Source of the DNA: Bacteroidota bacterium
GTDB taxonomy: Bacteria; Bacteroidota; Bacteroidia; Bacteroidales; FEN-979
NCBI GenBank assembly: GCA_026391795.1
Contig: JAPLDI010000029.1
Span: 1 to 64,000 of the forward strand
Reading direction: 5' to 3'
Length of the DNA: 64,000 nucleotides
Below, piece after piece: positions 51,101-57,702 of this stretch. Position numbers and translations under genes: made by a program. Positions within the stretch are counted from its first letter, which is position 1. Each line of letters starts with the position of its first letter. The notes under the pieces are model-generated. The model searched no databases. It was given only the letters and a program-made list of their open reading frames with translations, and was not told where the DNA came from.

Positions 51101-53089
51101 TTACCTTGATTTTATCACCTTCTTTACCATGTTGATCCCCTCTTCCGACTGAATTTTGACAAAATAGATCCCTTCATTCAATCCGCCGAACGGCAGGGTT
51201 ATTTTTGTCTGCCCTTCCCTTACCGGTTTAAAATCTGAGTAAACTACCTGTCCTGTGAGTGTACTTATTTCAACCCTGATCACGCAGGATTTCTGGAGGT
51301 TAACCGACAGGGTAAGCTGATCAGTAACCGGGTTTGGATACACGATCACCGATTCTTCCCCTCTCTTGAGATCGCTCGTGCCGAGGATATGCCCCCCGGT
51401 GAATGTCAGCGTCACATCTGCATTGGGATTTGACTGTGCAAGTACCACCTTGATCACATCACCCGGGCATCCCGGCAATTCTGGAACAAGATAATAGGTA
51501 CCATAGGCCAGTCCTGTGAAGTTGAAATTGCCGCCGGTATTGACCTGCACGGATGACAATACCACACCCTGTTCACTTCTGATCAGCATCGAGATCTTGT
51601 CAATGTAAGCTTCGATGGACTTCCCCGAGTTGATGTGGCCATTGATATTGCCGGGACCACTGGTATATCCGGGTGCGGGAATGAGGTGGATGTTGTAAGG
51701 ATTATCGGGATTGCCAAGTGTGAACGGTGTGGCCTGCTCCCAGTAAACAACATCCCCGAAGTAGGTTGGAAGGTAATCGTTAGAGTTAGGAATGGCCCAG
51801 ATGTAGTAACTTCCGACAGGCACATAAAGAAATTCATAAACCCCGGCGGAGTCTATGGGGCTGACGTGGGAATAAGGAAAGTAGACACCGGTTGAATCAA
51901 CGGAGAAGATCATTACCTCACCGGTGTCGAGCGGGAAATTGCCGGCAAACACCTGCCCGTATACCTGCTTGACAACTGCAGTATCTCCGACCTCTAGGTA
52001 TTGCATTGTAATGAACTGGCACTGGGAGGAGTCACGCGTAGTGAGCTGAACAGGATAAATTCCGGGCTGGGCGTATGCATGGGTCACCATCTGTCCTTGC
52101 CCCGTACTTCCGTCGCCGAAATCCCAGGAATAGGTTGCCCAAACCCAGCTGTCCATATACCCGGAAAAGTTTACATCCAGGTTAACGGCATAGTAAAAAA
52201 AATAGCTTTTGCAGCCAACGTTGTCAACAAATACACTCTGGGTAATGGAATCGTGACAGGTGACATTTCCTAAAGAATCCCAGTCAAAGATAGATAGGGT
52301 CACATCATAAGTTCCGACAATCTGATACCTGTGAGTAGGATTCTGTTCCCAAATACTGGTTCCGTCTCCGAATTTCCAGATAGATGCTGTAAAACCTCCG
52401 GTTGATTCATTTGTGAAATTAATGGTCCCTGGATCGTTCTGCTCCGGGGCGTGAGAAAACGCGGCGTGGCACTCCCCGAATGATCCAACGGAGATCGTCT
52501 GAAATGTCGTGTCATTACAGGAATTATAACCCAGGGAATCCCAGGCAAAAATAGCTAAGGTTACAAGATAGGTCCCTGGATGTGAATAGATGTTAACAGG
52601 ATTGAGCATCCAACTTTCATGGCCGTCACCAAAATTCCAGTGACACGAAGTGTACGTTCCGGTCGACTGGTTTGTGAACGTGATAAACAGTTTATTGCCC
52701 CAATCTGGGGTATAGGTGAAGGATGCAGTGCACGGAGACGTAGTGCAGATCTGGAGGTCAGCTGCATACGAATAAACTCCCGGAACATACGTAACGCCCT
52801 GATGGCGAAAAACATTGTTGCAGTCATACGTACCAACAGTGCATCCAAAAGTGAATGCGTAAAAATAGGCCGATGGAATTGTATCTGCATATTCACCTGT
52901 TTGGTTGGTGTAGACCGTATGCTGATAGTAGGGAGGATTTATCGAATCGCACCAGATCGTGACGGCATGATTAGCGACGGGATTGCCATTGGCTGCGTCG
53001 GTTATCATTCCGCTTATGTAGACCGGCGTTTGCGAAACTGCTGAAAAGACGATCAGCAATAAGATAAAGTGAAGGATCAGCTTTTTCAT
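51101..53089 (-). CDS. Secreted PKD-repeat protein with T9SS type A sorting tail
   Basis: A 662-aa cell-surface or secreted protein. After the signal peptide (about 1-19) comes a carboxypeptidase-regulatory-like domain (VYISGMITDAANGNPVANHA). Three PKD repeats follow, marked by CHWNFGDGHESW, WKFGDGTSIWEQNP and YSWDFGDGSTGQG (about residues 118-370). A second carboxypeptidase-like region precedes a type A sorting domain (VIVYPNPVTDQLTLSV, EGIYFVKIQSEEG). No catalytic domain is visible, so an adhesion or structural role is likely. It is monocistronic with its own terminator. Confidence 0.9.
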   Translation of the reverse strand: MKKLILHFILLLIVFSAVSQTPVYISGMITDAANGNPVANHAVTIWCDSINPPYYQHTVYTNQTGEYADTIPSAYFYAFTFGCTVGTYDCNNVFRHQGVTYVPGVYSYAADLQICTTSPCTASFTYTPDWGNKLFITFTNQSTGTYTSCHWNFGDGHESWMLNPVNIYSHPGTYLVTLAIFAWDSLGYNSCNDTTFQTISVGSFGECHAAFSHAPEQNDPGTINFTNESTGGFTASIWKFGDGTSIWEQNPTHRYQIVGTYDVTLSIFDWDSLGNVTCHDSITQSVFVDNVGCKSYFFYYAVNLDVNFSGYMDSWVWATYSWDFGDGSTGQGQMVTHAYAQPGIYPVQLTTRDSSQCQFITMQYLEVGDTAVVKQVYGQVFAGNFPLDTGEVMIFSVDSTGVYFPYSHVSPIDSAGVYEFLYVPVGSYYIWAIPNSNDYLPTYFGDVVYWEQATPFTLGNPDNPYNIHLIPAPGYTSGPGNINGHINSGKSIEAYIDKISMLIRSEQGVVLSSVQVNTGGNFNFTGLAYGTYYLVPELPGCPGDVIKVVLAQSNPNADVTLTFTGGHILGTSDLKRGEESVIVYPNPVTDQLTLSVNLQKSCVIRVEISTLTGQVVYSDFKPVREGQTKITLPFGGLNEGIYFVKIQSEEGINMVKKVIKSR

Positions 53090-53208
53090 GTTCTTTGTTT
53101 TAATTGATGAATAATCCGTTACGTTGTTTTTCGAATCATTCTCCGGAAATGTTCTGTATCATAAACCCGGCCGTTGGTAAAAGTTGCCTGCCGGGATTGC
53201 AACCCGTT

Positions 53209-54597
53209 TTATAGAATAACGATGAAAGCCCCGCGGATTCCCACCGACCATGGCTTTTTATTGCTCGTGCTTTTTTCATAAACCGAGTTGAAATAGTACC
53301 TCACCCCGGGCTCAAGTTCAAACCCGAGCCGGCGTGAAAAATGAAAGGTTGCATTGATCCCCCCGAGGAGCTGCCAGTTGGTTTGAATCCTCTCCGGTGC
53401 GATCTGGTTCACCAGGATGATTTTGTTTTTACCGGGATCATAATTGTCTGACAACTGCTCTGTCCTGAGCAAGATGGAAAGGATCGGCCCGGCCCGGAAA
53501 CCAAAGGAGAAATGTTCATTCGCCCAGAAATCATATCCAAGGATCAACGGGATCTGGAGGTAGGTATATTGTTTCACAATTTTTGCATCGGCTACCTTCA
53601 TCAGGCTGTCCCAGACATCCTGAGTCGAAAAATAAGTCGTTGGAACGTATTTGTAATGTCTATTATCCCATTTGAAATTCATTGAATCAAGCTTCTGGTA
53701 GCTCCCGAGGTAATCATTGTATCCGATGGAGAGTTCGTTTGTGCCTTTTGTGATCGATAATCCCGCTCCAGTTCGGATCGAGTAACGTCCGAAATGGAAT
53801 GTTCCTTCGATCCCGAAATTATTTACATATTTTTCACCTTCCAGCGTATTGAACATCCATTCGGGTGCATAGTAGGCTCCAAGACAGATGTTCCACATCC
53901 TCGGAGGAGCACCGGATGAGGGTGTTGCTTTTTCTTTCTGGCTCTGCAAAGGTATTGTGTCAGTCGTTTCCGGGGGGACGTAAGGCGGTGAATACTTTCC
54001 GGATGGACTCTCTTTGATAGTCTGGCTGCTGACCTCGGCGGGCAACGCAGTCGTTGGCTCGGCTGCTGTTTTATCAGGAGATGGATTAATGGATATTCCG
54101 TTCTCCGGAATTGATGGATCAGCTATGCGATCGGGAGTTTCATTTTGTCTGGTTATGGATGCTTGTGCAGCAGGTTCATTTTTCCCCGAGGATTGCTTTT
54201 TATTCGTGGGGCTTGTTTTCTGAACCGGATGAGGAAGTGGATTTGCCTTTTGATTTTCTTTTACGGCAGCAACTGACGGCTGTTGCTTGTTAAGGCTGGA
54301 CGATAGATTGGTATGCGGTAGGGAGTTTTTAATGATTCCTGATGAAACCGGAACGGATGTAATTTTAGCATCCGGATCCGTGCGTAGCAGGAAATAGCCT
54401 GCGCTGACGGAAATAAGCACAAGGACTGCTGAAAGGAAAAATATCCATTTCCTGTTCAGATGACCGCTTTCTTCCAGGGAAGCTGCTTCCTTCAGGAATG
54501 CCTCTTTTGCAGACGCTGAAGGAATTACCGTGTGCTCCTTTAATACCTCCCTGAAAAAATCATCAACTTTGTCTGGTTGCTTTTTCATCGGATTCAA
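53209..54597 (-). CDS. Inner-membrane helix / linker / outer-membrane barrel protein paired with an ECF sigma factor
   Basis: A 462-aa protein of three parts. Residues 1-50 are a charged cytosolic segment (VDDFFREVLKEHTVIPSASA). Residues 51-71 form one membrane helix (WIFFLSAVLVLISVSAGYFL). Residues 72-233 are a low-complexity Pro/Ser/Thr/Lys linker. From 234 on is a PorT-like outer-membrane barrel (NICLGAYYAPEWMF to SVGIRGAFIVIL). It overlaps the upstream ECF sigma gene by 26-35 bases depending on start (54588 or 54597). The N-terminus is placed like an anti-sigma domain but matches no known one that I recognise. Seen: the domain order. Inferred: a one-piece trans-envelope regulator of the sigma factor. 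Confidence 0.8.
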   Translation of the reverse strand: MNPMKKQPDKVDDFFREVLKEHTVIPSASAKEAFLKEAASLEESGHLNRKWIFFLSAVLVLISVSAGYFLLRTDPDAKITSVPVSSGIIKNSLPHTNLSSSLNKQQPSVAAVKENQKANPLPHPVQKTSPTNKKQSSGKNEPAAQASITRQNETPDRIADPSIPENGISINPSPDKTAAEPTTALPAEVSSQTIKESPSGKYSPPYVPPETTDTIPLQSQKEKATPSSGAPPRMWNICLGAYYAPEWMFNTLEGEKYVNNFGIEGTFHFGRYSIRTGAGLSITKGTNELSIGYNDYLGSYQKLDSMNFKWDNRHYKYVPTTYFSTQDVWDSLMKVADAKIVKQYTYLQIPLILGYDFWANEHFSFGFRAGPILSILLRTEQLSDNYDPGKNKIILVNQIAPERIQTNWQLLGGINATFHFSRRLGFELEPGVRYYFNSVYEKSTSNKKPWSVGIRGAFIVIL

Positions 54598-55138
54598 CTT
54601 GTTTACAATAAAAATGATCCAACTCTTTCCGGAGAATTCCCCGGGCTTTTGATAACTGTGATTTCGATGTGTTCTCGCTGCAATTCAGGAAGTGCGCAAT
54701 CTCGCGGTGTGAGTACGATTCGAAAACATACATGTTGAACACCGTCCGGTATCCTGTTGGCAGTTCACAAATCAGTTCCATCACCTTATCCGGATTGACC
54801 TTACCTGCAAGTTCATCAAACGAGGTCTCTTCAGGCTCGTCGTTGTTGATACGCTCACTTATCGGATCAATGTCAAGAAACTTCCTTTCCTTCGCATGAT
54901 CACGGATGTGATTCAGGGAAGTATTTACCATGATCCTCCGCATCCATGCTTCAAGACTTCCCTGCGGCCCGGGCCTGAATTTCGGAAGGTTCCGGATGAT
55001 CTTGATAAACCCATCGTGAAGTACATCCTCAGCATCCGCCAGGTTCCCGCAGTATCGCAGACATACACTCAGCAATGCCGGGGAATATCTGACATACAAT
55101 GATTCTGCGCTTTCTTCCTTACCGTGGTATGCTTTCAT
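54563..55138 (-). CDS. ECF-type RNA polymerase sigma factor
   Basis: A 191-aa sigma-70 family protein with regions 2 and 4 only. Region 2 includes LRYCGNLADAEDVLHDGFIK, and region 4 has the helix-turn-helix YRTVFNMYVFESYSHREIAH followed by FLNCSENTSKSQLSKAR. It would direct RNA polymerase to a small regulon in response to an envelope or external signal. The downstream gene, which overlaps it, encodes a membrane-anchored partner that likely controls it. No self-promoter motif was recognised in the 155 bases upstream. Confidence 0.93.
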   Translation of the reverse strand: MKAYHGKEESAESLYVRYSPALLSVCLRYCGNLADAEDVLHDGFIKIIRNLPKFRPGPQGSLEAWMRRIMVNTSLNHIRDHAKERKFLDIDPISERINNDEPEETSFDELAGKVNPDKVMELICELPTGYRTVFNMYVFESYSHREIAHFLNCSENTSKSQLSKARGILRKELDHFYCKQVESDEKATRQS

Positions 55139-55218
55139 CTCACCGGATCAGCCTTCGTACTACATCCTTACATAGTAGTAACACGCAAACGGTGAATGGT
55201 TGCCTCGTACCTGAAGAT

Positions 55219-55258
55219 AAAAAAAAAGAGGCTGCCAAATCTTGCAACCTCCCTTTTT
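55219..55258 (-). terminator. Rho-independent terminator after hppA
   Basis: GAGGcTGC (55228-55235) and GCAaCCTC (55244-55251) form a stem with one mismatch around an 8-base loop. It is flanked by A and T runs, so the minus strand ends in nine Ts. It lies 36 bases past the hppA stop. Confidence 0.82.
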
Positions 55259-55293
55259 AATTTCGGTACTTCGCTTTTCGCTGTCTCTCTATT

Positions 55294-57702
55294 TTATTTT
55301 CGGATCCTCATCTTAAAGAAGGAACGGTACACAAAATAAAGGGCGACGCCAAAGAAAACGATGCCGATGTAAGGGGCGATGGCATAGAAATTTGGTGAAA
55401 TCGCAATTTCCATGGCCAGCAGTCCGAACAAAGTCGTGAATTTGATAATGGGGTTCATGGCAACCGAGGAAGTGTCTTTAAACGGATCACCAACAGTGTC
55501 TCCGATCACCGTTGCATCATGAAGCGGCGTTCCCTTTTCTTTCATGTCAACTTCCACCACTTTCTTGGCATTGTCCCATGCGCCGCCGGCATTGGCCATG
55601 AAGATGGCCTGGAACAATCCGAAAAATGCAATGGAGATCAGGTAGGCTACAAAAAAGGAAGCAGCAGCATACATTTTGTTGGGATCTGCTTCCCCCGTAT
55701 CACGGTACCCTGACAAGAATGCAATCGCAAGTGCAAAAGAAAAGATGGCGATAAAGATGTTGAACATCCCGGTCTGGGCATATTGCGTGCAGATCTTCAC
55801 CACTTCCTTGGAAGTTTCAATGGAGGCCTTCTTTTCTGAATTTTCATCCAGATGGATGTTCTTCTTGATGTATTCCACGGCACGGTAAGCGCCGGTGGTA
55901 ACGGCCTGGATCGAAGCGCCGGTAAACCAGTAAATCACAGCACCTCCCATCAGGAAGCCGAGGATGGTGTATGGATTCAGGATGTTCAGGATCATCTCCG
56001 GAACGATTCCCAGTTTTTCCTTGATCACAAGGATGAGGGAGAAGATCATCGTCGTGGCACCCACAACAGCAGTTCCGATAAGGACAGGTTTCGCCGTTGC
56101 CTTAAACGTGTTGCCGGCACCGTCGTTGGCTTCGAGATAATGTTTTGCCTTTTCAAAATCGGGTTTAAAACCGAAATCCCGCTGGATGTCAATGGTTGCC
56201 TGTGCCTTGTCTTCTTCAATCAGGGAAAGTTCGTAAACTGATTGTGCGTTGTCGGTGACCGGCCCGTAACTGTCAACGGCAATGGTTACCGGACCCATGC
56301 CGAGGAATCCGAATGCAACCAGGCCAAATGCAAAGATCGATGGATAGATCATGAAATAAACCAGGCCATGTGTACTGGCCATATAAGCGACAAACATCAG
56401 CACCAGGAAAACCATTCCCTGCCAGAATGCGCTGAAGTTACCTGCAACGAGACCCGACAGGATGTTCAGCGAGGCCCCGCCTTCTTTTGAAGCCGTTACC
56501 ACCTCATTTACATGTTTCGATTTTGGGCTGGTGAAGATCTTGGTGAATTCAGGGATCAGTGCCGCACCCAGGGTCCCACAACTGATGATGATGGAAAGGG
56601 TAAGCCAGAGGTGGTTGGCCATATCACTGATCATGACATAACTTGCAACAAAGGTTACAATGATCGACAGGATCGAGGTGATCCATACCAGGTTGGTAAG
56701 CGGACGTTCAAAGTCAATGTCATCCTGCTTGCTGTAAAGTGCGTTGCTGAGAAGCTTGTTAATATAAAAGGAAGTGATCGACGTGATTACCATCAGGATA
56801 CGCATCACGAAGATCCAGGTAAGCAGCTGCATCTGATCAACCTCTTTGAAAACTGCCAGGACGATGAAAGAGATCAGGGCAACACCGGTCACGCCATATG
56901 TTTCAAATCCGTCGGCGGTCGGGCCAACACTGTCACCTGCATTATCGCCGGTACAGTCGGCAATGACGCCGGGATTTCTCGGGTCATCTTCCTTGATCTT
57001 GAATACCACCTTCATCAGGTCCGATCCGATATCTGCAATCTTGGTGAAGATCCCACCGGCAATACGCAATGCGGATGCACCGAGGGATTCACCGATGGCA
57101 AAACCGATAAAACTGGCACCGGCCAGGTTCCGGGGTACGAAAAGCAGGATGATCAGCATCATGATCAGCTCCACGCAGATCAGCATGACGCCGATACTCA
57201 TCCCTGAATCGAGGGGGATGTTTAATAATTTGATGGGTTTCCTTTCCAGGGATGCAAAAGCCATACGGCTGTTGGCCAGCGTGTTCATCCGGATGCCAAA
57301 CCATGCCACACCATAAGAACCCAGGATGCCGACTACGGTCCAGCTGAGGATCAGAAGGACACCGCCAAAGGAGGTTCCCTGAAGTCCGCCGAAATAAAAG
57401 GCGATACAGAGCCCGATGAACAGAAACAGGATAACCAGGAATTTTCCCTGCTGGATCAGGTAGGTCTTGCAGGTTTCGAAAATTACCTTGGCAACATCAA
57501 GCATCGATGAATGTGCCCCCAGTTTTTTGACCTTGAGATATTGATAATAACCGAAGAGCATTCCCAGGAAACAGATCAGGAAACCAAATAACAGGATGTT
57601 ATTCTGGCTCGCCGACAGGTTCGGGATCTTCAGATCTGCCTCACTGGCAAATATAAAAGCCGGCATCAGGAGTGTAACCAGCAGAAAGATGATTTTCTTC
57701 AT
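55294..57702 (-). CDS. hppA: Membrane-bound ion-translocating pyrophosphatase, divergent type
   Basis: Couples pyrophosphate hydrolysis to ion transport. It has 802 aa with about 16 membrane segments. The hydrolytic site is recognisable but diverged: ADIGSDLMKVVFKIKEDDPR and CTGDNAGDSVGPTADGFE. The second conserved block has GAGNTFKATAKPV (about residue 530). A Lys after GNxx is the mark of potassium-independent enzymes. Together this resembles the divergent, sodium-regulated proton-pumping lineage described from Chlorobium, which is my recollection and not a verified match. I start at the ATG at 57702 (MKKIIFLLVTLLMPAFIFA). It has its own promoter and terminator. Confidence 0.93.
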   Translation of the reverse strand: MKKIIFLLVTLLMPAFIFASEADLKIPNLSASQNNILLFGFLICFLGMLFGYYQYLKVKKLGAHSSMLDVAKVIFETCKTYLIQQGKFLVILFLFIGLCIAFYFGGLQGTSFGGVLLILSWTVVGILGSYGVAWFGIRMNTLANSRMAFASLERKPIKLLNIPLDSGMSIGVMLICVELIMMLIILLFVPRNLAGASFIGFAIGESLGASALRIAGGIFTKIADIGSDLMKVVFKIKEDDPRNPGVIADCTGDNAGDSVGPTADGFETYGVTGVALISFIVLAVFKEVDQMQLLTWIFVMRILMVITSITSFYINKLLSNALYSKQDDIDFERPLTNLVWITSILSIIVTFVASYVMISDMANHLWLTLSIIISCGTLGAALIPEFTKIFTSPKSKHVNEVVTASKEGGASLNILSGLVAGNFSAFWQGMVFLVLMFVAYMASTHGLVYFMIYPSIFAFGLVAFGFLGMGPVTIAVDSYGPVTDNAQSVYELSLIEEDKAQATIDIQRDFGFKPDFEKAKHYLEANDGAGNTFKATAKPVLIGTAVVGATTMIFSLILVIKEKLGIVPEMILNILNPYTILGFLMGGAVIYWFTGASIQAVTTGAYRAVEYIKKNIHLDENSEKKASIETSKEVVKICTQYAQTGMFNIFIAIFSFALAIAFLSGYRDTGEADPNKMYAAASFFVAYLISIAFFGLFQAIFMANAGGAWDNAKKVVEVDMKEKGTPLHDATVIGDTVGDPFKDTSSVAMNPIIKFTTLFGLLAMEIAISPNFYAIAPYIGIVFFGVALYFVYRSFFKMRIRK

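Follow-up and report, generated by a model that had tools for sequence, protein, structure and literature searches.

Gene order at the locus

The window considered here (the whole stretch of DNA that was analysed, 64,000 nt) belongs to a Bacteroidales genome of 3.76 Mb in 50 contigs. On the minus strand, which carries all the features of this locus, a V-type pyrophosphatase-like ORF is followed by an ECF sigma factor gene (54563..55138, 191 aa), by a gene for a partner protein of 459 aa, referred to here as dma (53209..54588, ATG at 54588), by a third gene encoding a PKD-repeat protein of 662 aa with a type IX secretion system (T9SS) tail (51101..53089), and by a glycine dehydrogenase-like ORF; the names of the two flanking ORFs are tentative and were assigned by eye from the sequence. 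A second sigma-dma pair lies on contig 17 of the same genome (pair B, as opposed to pair A of the window), and the Dma proteins of the two pairs are 28% identical.

The sigma factor ORF matches Pfam Sigma70_r2 (E 3.3e-19) and Sigma70_r4_2 (E 9.7e-14) as well as the NCBIfam sigma70-ECF superfamily over its cut-off, and its best NCBIfam subfamily, Sig70_bacteroi1, reaches E 1.3e-25 yet stays below the cut-off of that model. As stated by an earlier note on this DNA, dma overlaps the sigma gene. The overlap measures 26 nt from the ATG at 54588, or 35 nt from an alternative TTG start at 54597, nine bases 5' of this ATG. Conservation of the overlap among homologues, which the same note had considered, is also found, with overlapping genes in 30/32 group-A and 16/33 group-B loci, counts that depend on the start-codon rule chosen in the analysis.

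Predicted architecture of the partner protein

The partner was originally described, from its letters alone, as a cytosolic segment, a single inner-membrane helix, a linker of about 160 residues rich in Pro, Ser, Thr and Lys, and an outer-membrane barrel, and this description is borne out by structure prediction (AlphaFold2), structural alignment (VIA-align) and composition. The AlphaFold2 model, obtained from 57 aligned homologues (mean pLDDT 73.2, pTM 0.51), contains helices at residues 7-17, 25-40 and 43-68, the last one enclosing a hydrophobic stretch at residues 48-68 (54385..54447) that peaks at 2.35 over 19 residues on the Kyte-Doolittle scale and is the predicted inner-membrane helix. 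The first two predicted helices belong to the N-terminal segment (residues 1-46, 54451..54588), whose location is predicted to be cytosolic and which harbors a motif of the form D-x-x-F-R-x-x-L ... P-S. No Pfam anti-sigma domain was found in the partner, the model having two helices before the membrane helix, and the Dma profile, compared with the sequences of solved structures, returned no convincing relative. A fused frame of sigma factor and partner, prepared for modelling of their contact, was rejected, the alignment having put N-terminal fragments onto the sigma domain at 3-16% identity.

Behind the helix, a periplasmic tether predicted to be disordered (residues 69-231, 53896..54384) shows pLDDT values mostly below 50, near 42, over residues 75-219 (about 145 residues), and the linker residues 71-227 consist of Pro, Ser, Thr and Lys for 47%. 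The predicted outer-membrane beta-barrel (residues 232-459, 53212..53895) has its strands between residues 232 and 458, with pLDDT mostly above 90, and residues 228-459 align to 8-stranded barrels with Z scores of 15.5-17.2, including OprF (4rlc, Z 17.2), NspA (1p4t, Z 16.8), OmpA (Z 15.7) and OmpW. The Pfam OMP_b-brl_2 match of the window protein itself (22.3 bits) falls below the curated cut-off of 27; the domain is found at E up to 0.01 in 55 of the 57 homologues.

All 57 homologues possess 43-57 residues before the helix region (to the column of residue 45), and their tethers measure 99-216 residues (median 152). Within group A, the barrel is the best conserved part (53.0% mean pairwise identity), followed by residues 1-45 (37.3%) and the helix (22.4%), and the tether is the least conserved region of the protein (12.9%). 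Such a bounded length, together with a drifting sequence between two conserved ends, is what would be expected of a physical linker. The idea of an anti-sigma factor reaching both membranes within one chain, close to the trans-envelope partner put forward in the earlier note, is well supported, and a protein of this predicted anatomy would span the envelope in vivo.

Association with sigma factor genes and occurrence of a split form

Among 61 genomes including that of the window, 43 contain a match to Dma, and a sigma ORF lies directly upstream in 73 of the 76 loci read (own pairs A and B counted); the three others are two loci open at a contig end and one barrel without N-terminal module. This adjacency exceeds chance. 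Counts by group are based on 32 A, 33 B and four "other" loci (L034, L043, L075, L076), excluding frame-broken copies (L011, L017, L037, L046), loci at a contig end (L014, L025), and L074, where the Dma query picked up a free-standing barrel that opens with a hydrophobic stretch and has neither sigma gene nor N-terminal module; L077, L078 and L079 repeat L003, L015 and L014, and the compared loci are mostly orthologues, so that the counts are not independent. Among the broken copies, the dma gene of L011 contains one in-frame TGA, and L017, L037 and L046 have their pieces in different frames, for which decay or assembly errors may be responsible.

In a wider draw of 198 genomes from the phylum, the Dma profile matched 45 and a profile of barrel-less proteins matched 48. 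From both profiles 44 distinct loci were read, 43 of them with a sigma gene upstream: 15 are fused, 26 were classified by script as split, with a separate barrel gene coming next, and three showed no barrel, one of which (L094) has a barrel ORF next to it by alignment, bringing the split total to 27. As the split-barrel profile was built on ten loci that match it by construction, 17 of these 27 are independent. The N-terminal domains of fused and split proteins are related according to hhalign (probability 97.3, E 1.7e-11), as are their barrels by profile comparison (probability 92.3, E 5.6e-7), and Pfam OMP_b-brl_2 is found in 7/10 split barrels at E up to 0.01. The split form is thus, as read from sequence, a barrel encoded by its own gene behind a predicted barrel-less anti-sigma factor with the same N-terminal domain, and its presence in related bacteria indicates that the phylum also has a solution other than the one-chain form. 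On a quick sigma-factor tree of 83 rows (covering about half of the A and B loci), with several long branches and unsure details, the distribution of fused and split forms needs three changes, suggesting that the switch between them is old and rare.

These distributions bear on what the partner protein may be. It might be a plain outer-membrane protein, whose hydrophobic stretch is a signal peptide only and whose overlap with the sigma gene is incidental, with no anti-sigma function: the Pfam family of its barrel is a common one, with 15 matches in the own genome (14 over the cut-off), and L074 is an example of a barrel with a hydrophobic start and no sigma gene. This is very unlikely, given the segment that precedes the helix region in every homologue, its recurrence in barrel-less proteins behind sigma genes, and the nearly universal sigma adjacency.

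Alternatively, the chain could be cut in the periplasm, either constitutively or in response to a signal. Anti-sigma factors such as RseA and FecR are handled by regulated proteolysis, and the partner would then act as a one-helix anti-sigma factor of this kind, its barrel being a sensor that exposes a cleavage site. The long low-complexity tether would be an easy target for a protease, and, to judge by the split form, the anti-sigma part is able to stand alone as an inner-membrane protein. However, the bounded length of the tether despite little sequence conservation fits a tether, and the descriptions of Dma and Reo, in the accessible parts of the publications, speak of one spanning chain (PMC13088901, PMC9308784, PMC13114119). 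Cleavage is on the whole rather unlikely.

The third gene and its family

The protein encoded by the third gene is predicted to be secreted, and combines PKD repeats, a carboxypeptidase-regulatory-like domain and a type A C-terminal sorting domain of the T9SS (PF18962, E 2.2e-12; TIGR04183, E 2.5e-11; both over cut-off). Its AlphaFold2 model (mean pLDDT 83.9, pTM 0.39) is a bead-string of beta-sandwich domains. In the Foldseek results the first places are taken by segments of GhpA, a grappling-hook protein of Aureispira, but as their TM-scores are about 0.1-0.2, the resemblance is taken to go no further than the string of Ig-like domains. The own genome encodes the T9SS channel SprA (SprA_N, E 2.8e-163, in a 2415-aa frame; control genomes 0/14). 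PKD repeats are present in 23/23 members of the family that were scanned and the T9SS tail in 21/23, L179 running off its stretch so that its tail is not visible; these members include the tandem PKD gene of genome G001 (L152).

A homologue of the third gene is located behind dma in 29/32 A, 32/33 B and 1/4 other loci, i.e. in 61/65 A and B loci at the level of the family, with the reservation that the 23 members of the profile come mostly from the counted loci and that about 20 match by construction. Across the order, 100 of 148 genomes drawn match the Dma profile, and in the best 29 order-level loci, which are those most similar to the window family, a sigma gene is upstream in 29/29 and the third gene is present in 22/29 (19/24 without the five repeats L212, L213, L214, L228 and L229), leaving 7/29 Dma loci without it. 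In the own genome, 51 stretches match the third-gene profile, of which only three are full-length family members, one behind pair A and two in tandem behind pair B. The unit is, as predicted from these sequences, composed of a sigma factor, a two-membrane anti-sigma factor and a T9SS surface protein. Very long PKD-repeat frames of 2561-5285 residues were also noticed on contigs C10, C17 and C42 of the own genome.

Promoter-like boxes and the predicted regulon

Joint reading of upstream regions reveals a conserved box 5' of the sigma gene (GGCAACCATTCACCGTTTGCGTGTTA, 55179..55204), whose consensus in relatives is GGCAAC(C)WTT-N10-GTGTTA, near forms of GTGTTA also occurring. Because their sigma ORFs are truncated, two loci of group A and one of group B do not enter the counts of the box before sigma (leaving 30/32 and 32/33). 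In 29/30 group-A loci the A-type box starts 35-66 nt before the sigma start codon, and in 29/30 it agrees with at least 12/16 consensus positions. A second copy (GGCAACTTTTACCAACGGCCGGGTTT, 53163..53188) lies between dma and the PKD-protein gene and was recognised both by genome scans and by a matrix derived from the upstream boxes alone. This matrix finds a second box within 200 nt behind dma in 28/32 group-A loci, and in each of them the score reaches the lowest value that 200 mononucleotide shuffles allow (0.005). Of the four loci missed, three (L036, L038, L039) are from outside the family, and only 11-40 nt separate their last dma codon from the start of the third ORF, so that no promoter would be needed; the fourth (L018) has no box behind dma, but one before its displaced PKD gene further on.

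The two boxes of a genome agree at 87% of element positions vs 32% of spacer positions (26 pairs), and 22/26 second boxes outscore the highest value (14.2) reached in coding regions of the same loci. The divergence of the spacers, along with the existence of displaced and tandem targets, speaks most clearly against shared descent as the sole explanation of the boxes, which can be regarded, on the basis of their conservation, as putative sigma-dependent promoters. The strict pattern GGCAACNWTTN10GKGTTW has exactly two matches in the own genome, both at the window locus (reversed control, 0), and 59 matches in 32 genomes among the 61 relatives (reversed control, six). A widened scan of the own genome (GRCAACNWTTN10GKGTTW, one mismatch) gives eight places against six for the control, of which only three are intergenic with a matrix score of at least 20, namely before sigma, before the window PKD gene and on contig 17, where another PKD gene follows. 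The other five are attributed to chance, since they fall inside ORFs with scores of 11.0-16.2, even though the one on contig 18 matches the widened pattern exactly; a first scan with GGCAACN{14,15}GTGTT had found three places against six for the reversed control, two of them inside long ORFs and treated as chance.

The A-type box on contig 17 (55150-55175) is located 95 nt before the second PKD gene (55224-57263), in tandem behind pair B. In two genomes of the same genus, G001 (C24:26198) and G004 (C38:14623), a box likewise precedes a PKD gene that closely resembles it and shares its contig with pair B, the B pair being the only one seen among the Dma matches of G004. The presence of an A-type box before a gene behind pair B means that the unit is not fully self-contained, and sigma A probably also controls this gene at the pair-B locus. 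The 16 strict matches away from known sigma-dma loci were all read: two (L144, L152) precede PKD genes of the family, one (L155) a sigma gene, one (L147) an unrelated 520-aa ORF, and three (L146, L153 and L154, in G024, G031 and G029) are followed after 139-145 nt by a gene for a PepSY-like lipoprotein, which may also belong to the regulon. The other nine (L145, L148, L149, L150, L151, L156, L157, L158 and L159), before which no common target was seen, may be due to chance.

A different box, GCAAC-N17-GTCT, characterizes pair B and occurs in 30/32 upstream regions, that of L050 lying inside the chosen sigma ORF; a search for GGCAAC-N14-18-GTCT in the 500 nt behind dma of the 33 B loci found none. 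Pairs A and B therefore suggest, from their boxes, two promoter specificities within one cell.

Taken together, the sigma factor most likely controls the neighbouring gene for an exported surface protein, as judged by the boxes and by gene order. Could the product of the third gene, besides being an output, also contribute to sensing, with the protein or its tail reaching the surface and binding the barrel so that the unit monitors export or product level, much as PorA and PorXY-SigP of Porphyromonas gingivalis? Full-length members of the family occur in the own genome only behind sigma-dma pairs and are widely adjacent elsewhere, the third gene of group B directly follows dma with no B-type box between, and a T9SS-tailed surface protein upstream of an ECF sigma factor provides a precedent (PMC7712824, available in part). 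Against this, the sigma-type box that the third gene possesses in group A fits an output equally well, and A-type boxes also precede the second PKD gene and, in three genomes, the PepSY-like lipoprotein gene, as would be expected of a regulon rather than of a receptor complex. A role in sensing is thus judged unlikely, and the third protein is considered below as a predicted target.

Comparison with known systems

In the FecI-FecR-FecA system, the ECF sigma factor is under the control of an anti-sigma factor in the inner membrane, which receives its information from a barrel in the outer membrane. The layout of the window differs from this scheme, as the earlier note had pointed out: its small 8-stranded barrel is fused to the predicted anti-sigma factor, and no TonB-dependent receptor or FecR domain was found with Pfam at E up to 1 in the sigma factor, the partner or the third protein. 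Neither the conserved third gene, with its own copy of the predicted promoter, nor the split form had been pointed out in that note.

The closest described relatives are the Dma1 and Dma2 proteins, which possess an N-terminal anti-sigma domain, a transmembrane helix, a long disordered tether and a C-terminal barrel, and are encoded beside an ECF sigma gene (PMC13088901). Judged by that description, as given in the available part of the source, the predicted anatomy of the partner matches the Dma layout. Their known phenotypes concern the formation of outer-membrane vesicles and polysaccharide-utilisation genes, that of a dma2 deletion in B. thetaiotaomicron requires das2, and the Dma2 operon also comprises a third gene, BT_1557, of unknown function (PMC13088901, same part). 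Compared with Dma, the unit of the window adds a PKD gene with a T9SS tail and its own predicted sigma-type promoter. To our knowledge, B. thetaiotaomicron is devoid of a T9SS.

A similar arrangement is the EcfO-Reo system of Bacteroides fragilis and Phocaeicola vulgatus, in which the sigma gene is followed by a large anti-sigma gene whose product is predicted to span the periplasm and to end in an outer-membrane barrel (PMC9308784, PMC13114119). According to the accessible portions of these two papers, an antibacterial toxin induces the sigma gene, the EcfO regulon includes three nigD genes, O-antigen length changes, and P. vulgatus strains that lack a functional anti-sigma gene have their sigma factor in the active state. 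By description, both systems have the same layout of a sigma factor and a trans-envelope barrel protein, whereas the predicted targets are here the own operon and PKD proteins. The one-chain design is already published as Dma and Reo.

A link between an ECF sigma factor and T9SS-tailed proteins is found in Porphyromonas gingivalis, where PorA, a T9SS-tailed surface protein, acts upstream of the ECF sigma factor SigP with PorXY, and where the sigma gene is autoregulated (PMC7712824). The likeness with the present locus concerns these two aspects, autoregulation being predicted here; in contrast, PorXY-SigP involves a two-component system and regulates T9SS components, and the available part of that source describes no trans-envelope anti-sigma factor. 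Class I anti-sigma domains (ASDIs), which have a four-helix fold contacting sigma regions 2 and 4, accompany no more than 6% of the ECFs of Bacteroidetes, according to a source likewise available in part (PMC7406223). Among the papers found by literature searches that combined Dma or anti-sigma factors with T9SS or with PKD, or that concerned barrel-type anti-sigma factors in Bacteroidota, none describes the trio or the split form in its title or at the start of its abstract, and the 2024 founding Dma paper may contain either. Within this literature, the locus is a Dma-type system, as predicted from sequence, with a newly seen and conserved T9SS-type predicted target.

Proposed mode of action

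Gene order, domain content and structural models together make it quite likely that the locus represents a three-gene signalling unit of Bacteroidales, with a sigma factor in an overlapping gene, a Dma-type anti-sigma factor, and a T9SS surface protein as target. We infer the anti-sigma activity of the partner from the anatomy it shares with Dma and Reo. Its N-terminal helical domain would most likely bind the sigma factor directly and hold it at the inner membrane, the single helix and the disordered tether tying this domain to the small outer-membrane barrel. A change in the barrel, due to outer-membrane stress or to a ligand, would be passed through the chain and free the sigma factor, this release being the presumed activating step. 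Once freed, the sigma factor would transcribe its own operon and the next gene from promoters of the GGCAAC-N14-GTGTTA type, and in the own genome one further gene of the same family on another contig. The product of the next gene would be exported by the T9SS as a chain of Ig-like domains, displayed on or released from the cell surface.

The unit may even operate as a trans-envelope homeostat that keeps either T9SS export or a surface layer in balance. In this scenario the barrel would sense PKD proteins that have arrived at the surface, the tether would pass on their state mechanically instead of by a protease cascade, and the regulon of the own genome would hardly extend beyond the sigma-dma operon and a pair of T9SS-type PKD proteins, while evolution would have realised one circuit in two ways, fused and split; taken as a whole, this extension is speculative and improbable.

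Dma and Reo have been described in Bacteroides of the gut, with few of their signals and direct targets established so far. The present locus offers a compact version, with one sigma factor, one brake that apparently reaches both membranes, and a few promoter-like boxes, which name type IX-exported surface proteins as probable direct targets. The persistence of the trio across the order, together with a natural split version, could allow simple genetic tests of signalling from the outer membrane to RNA polymerase. A last observation concerns four contigs (G313:C100, G297:C8, G329:C41 and G278:C107) on which two Dma genes lie about 2-4 kb apart, a spacing that suggests tandem copies of the unit.
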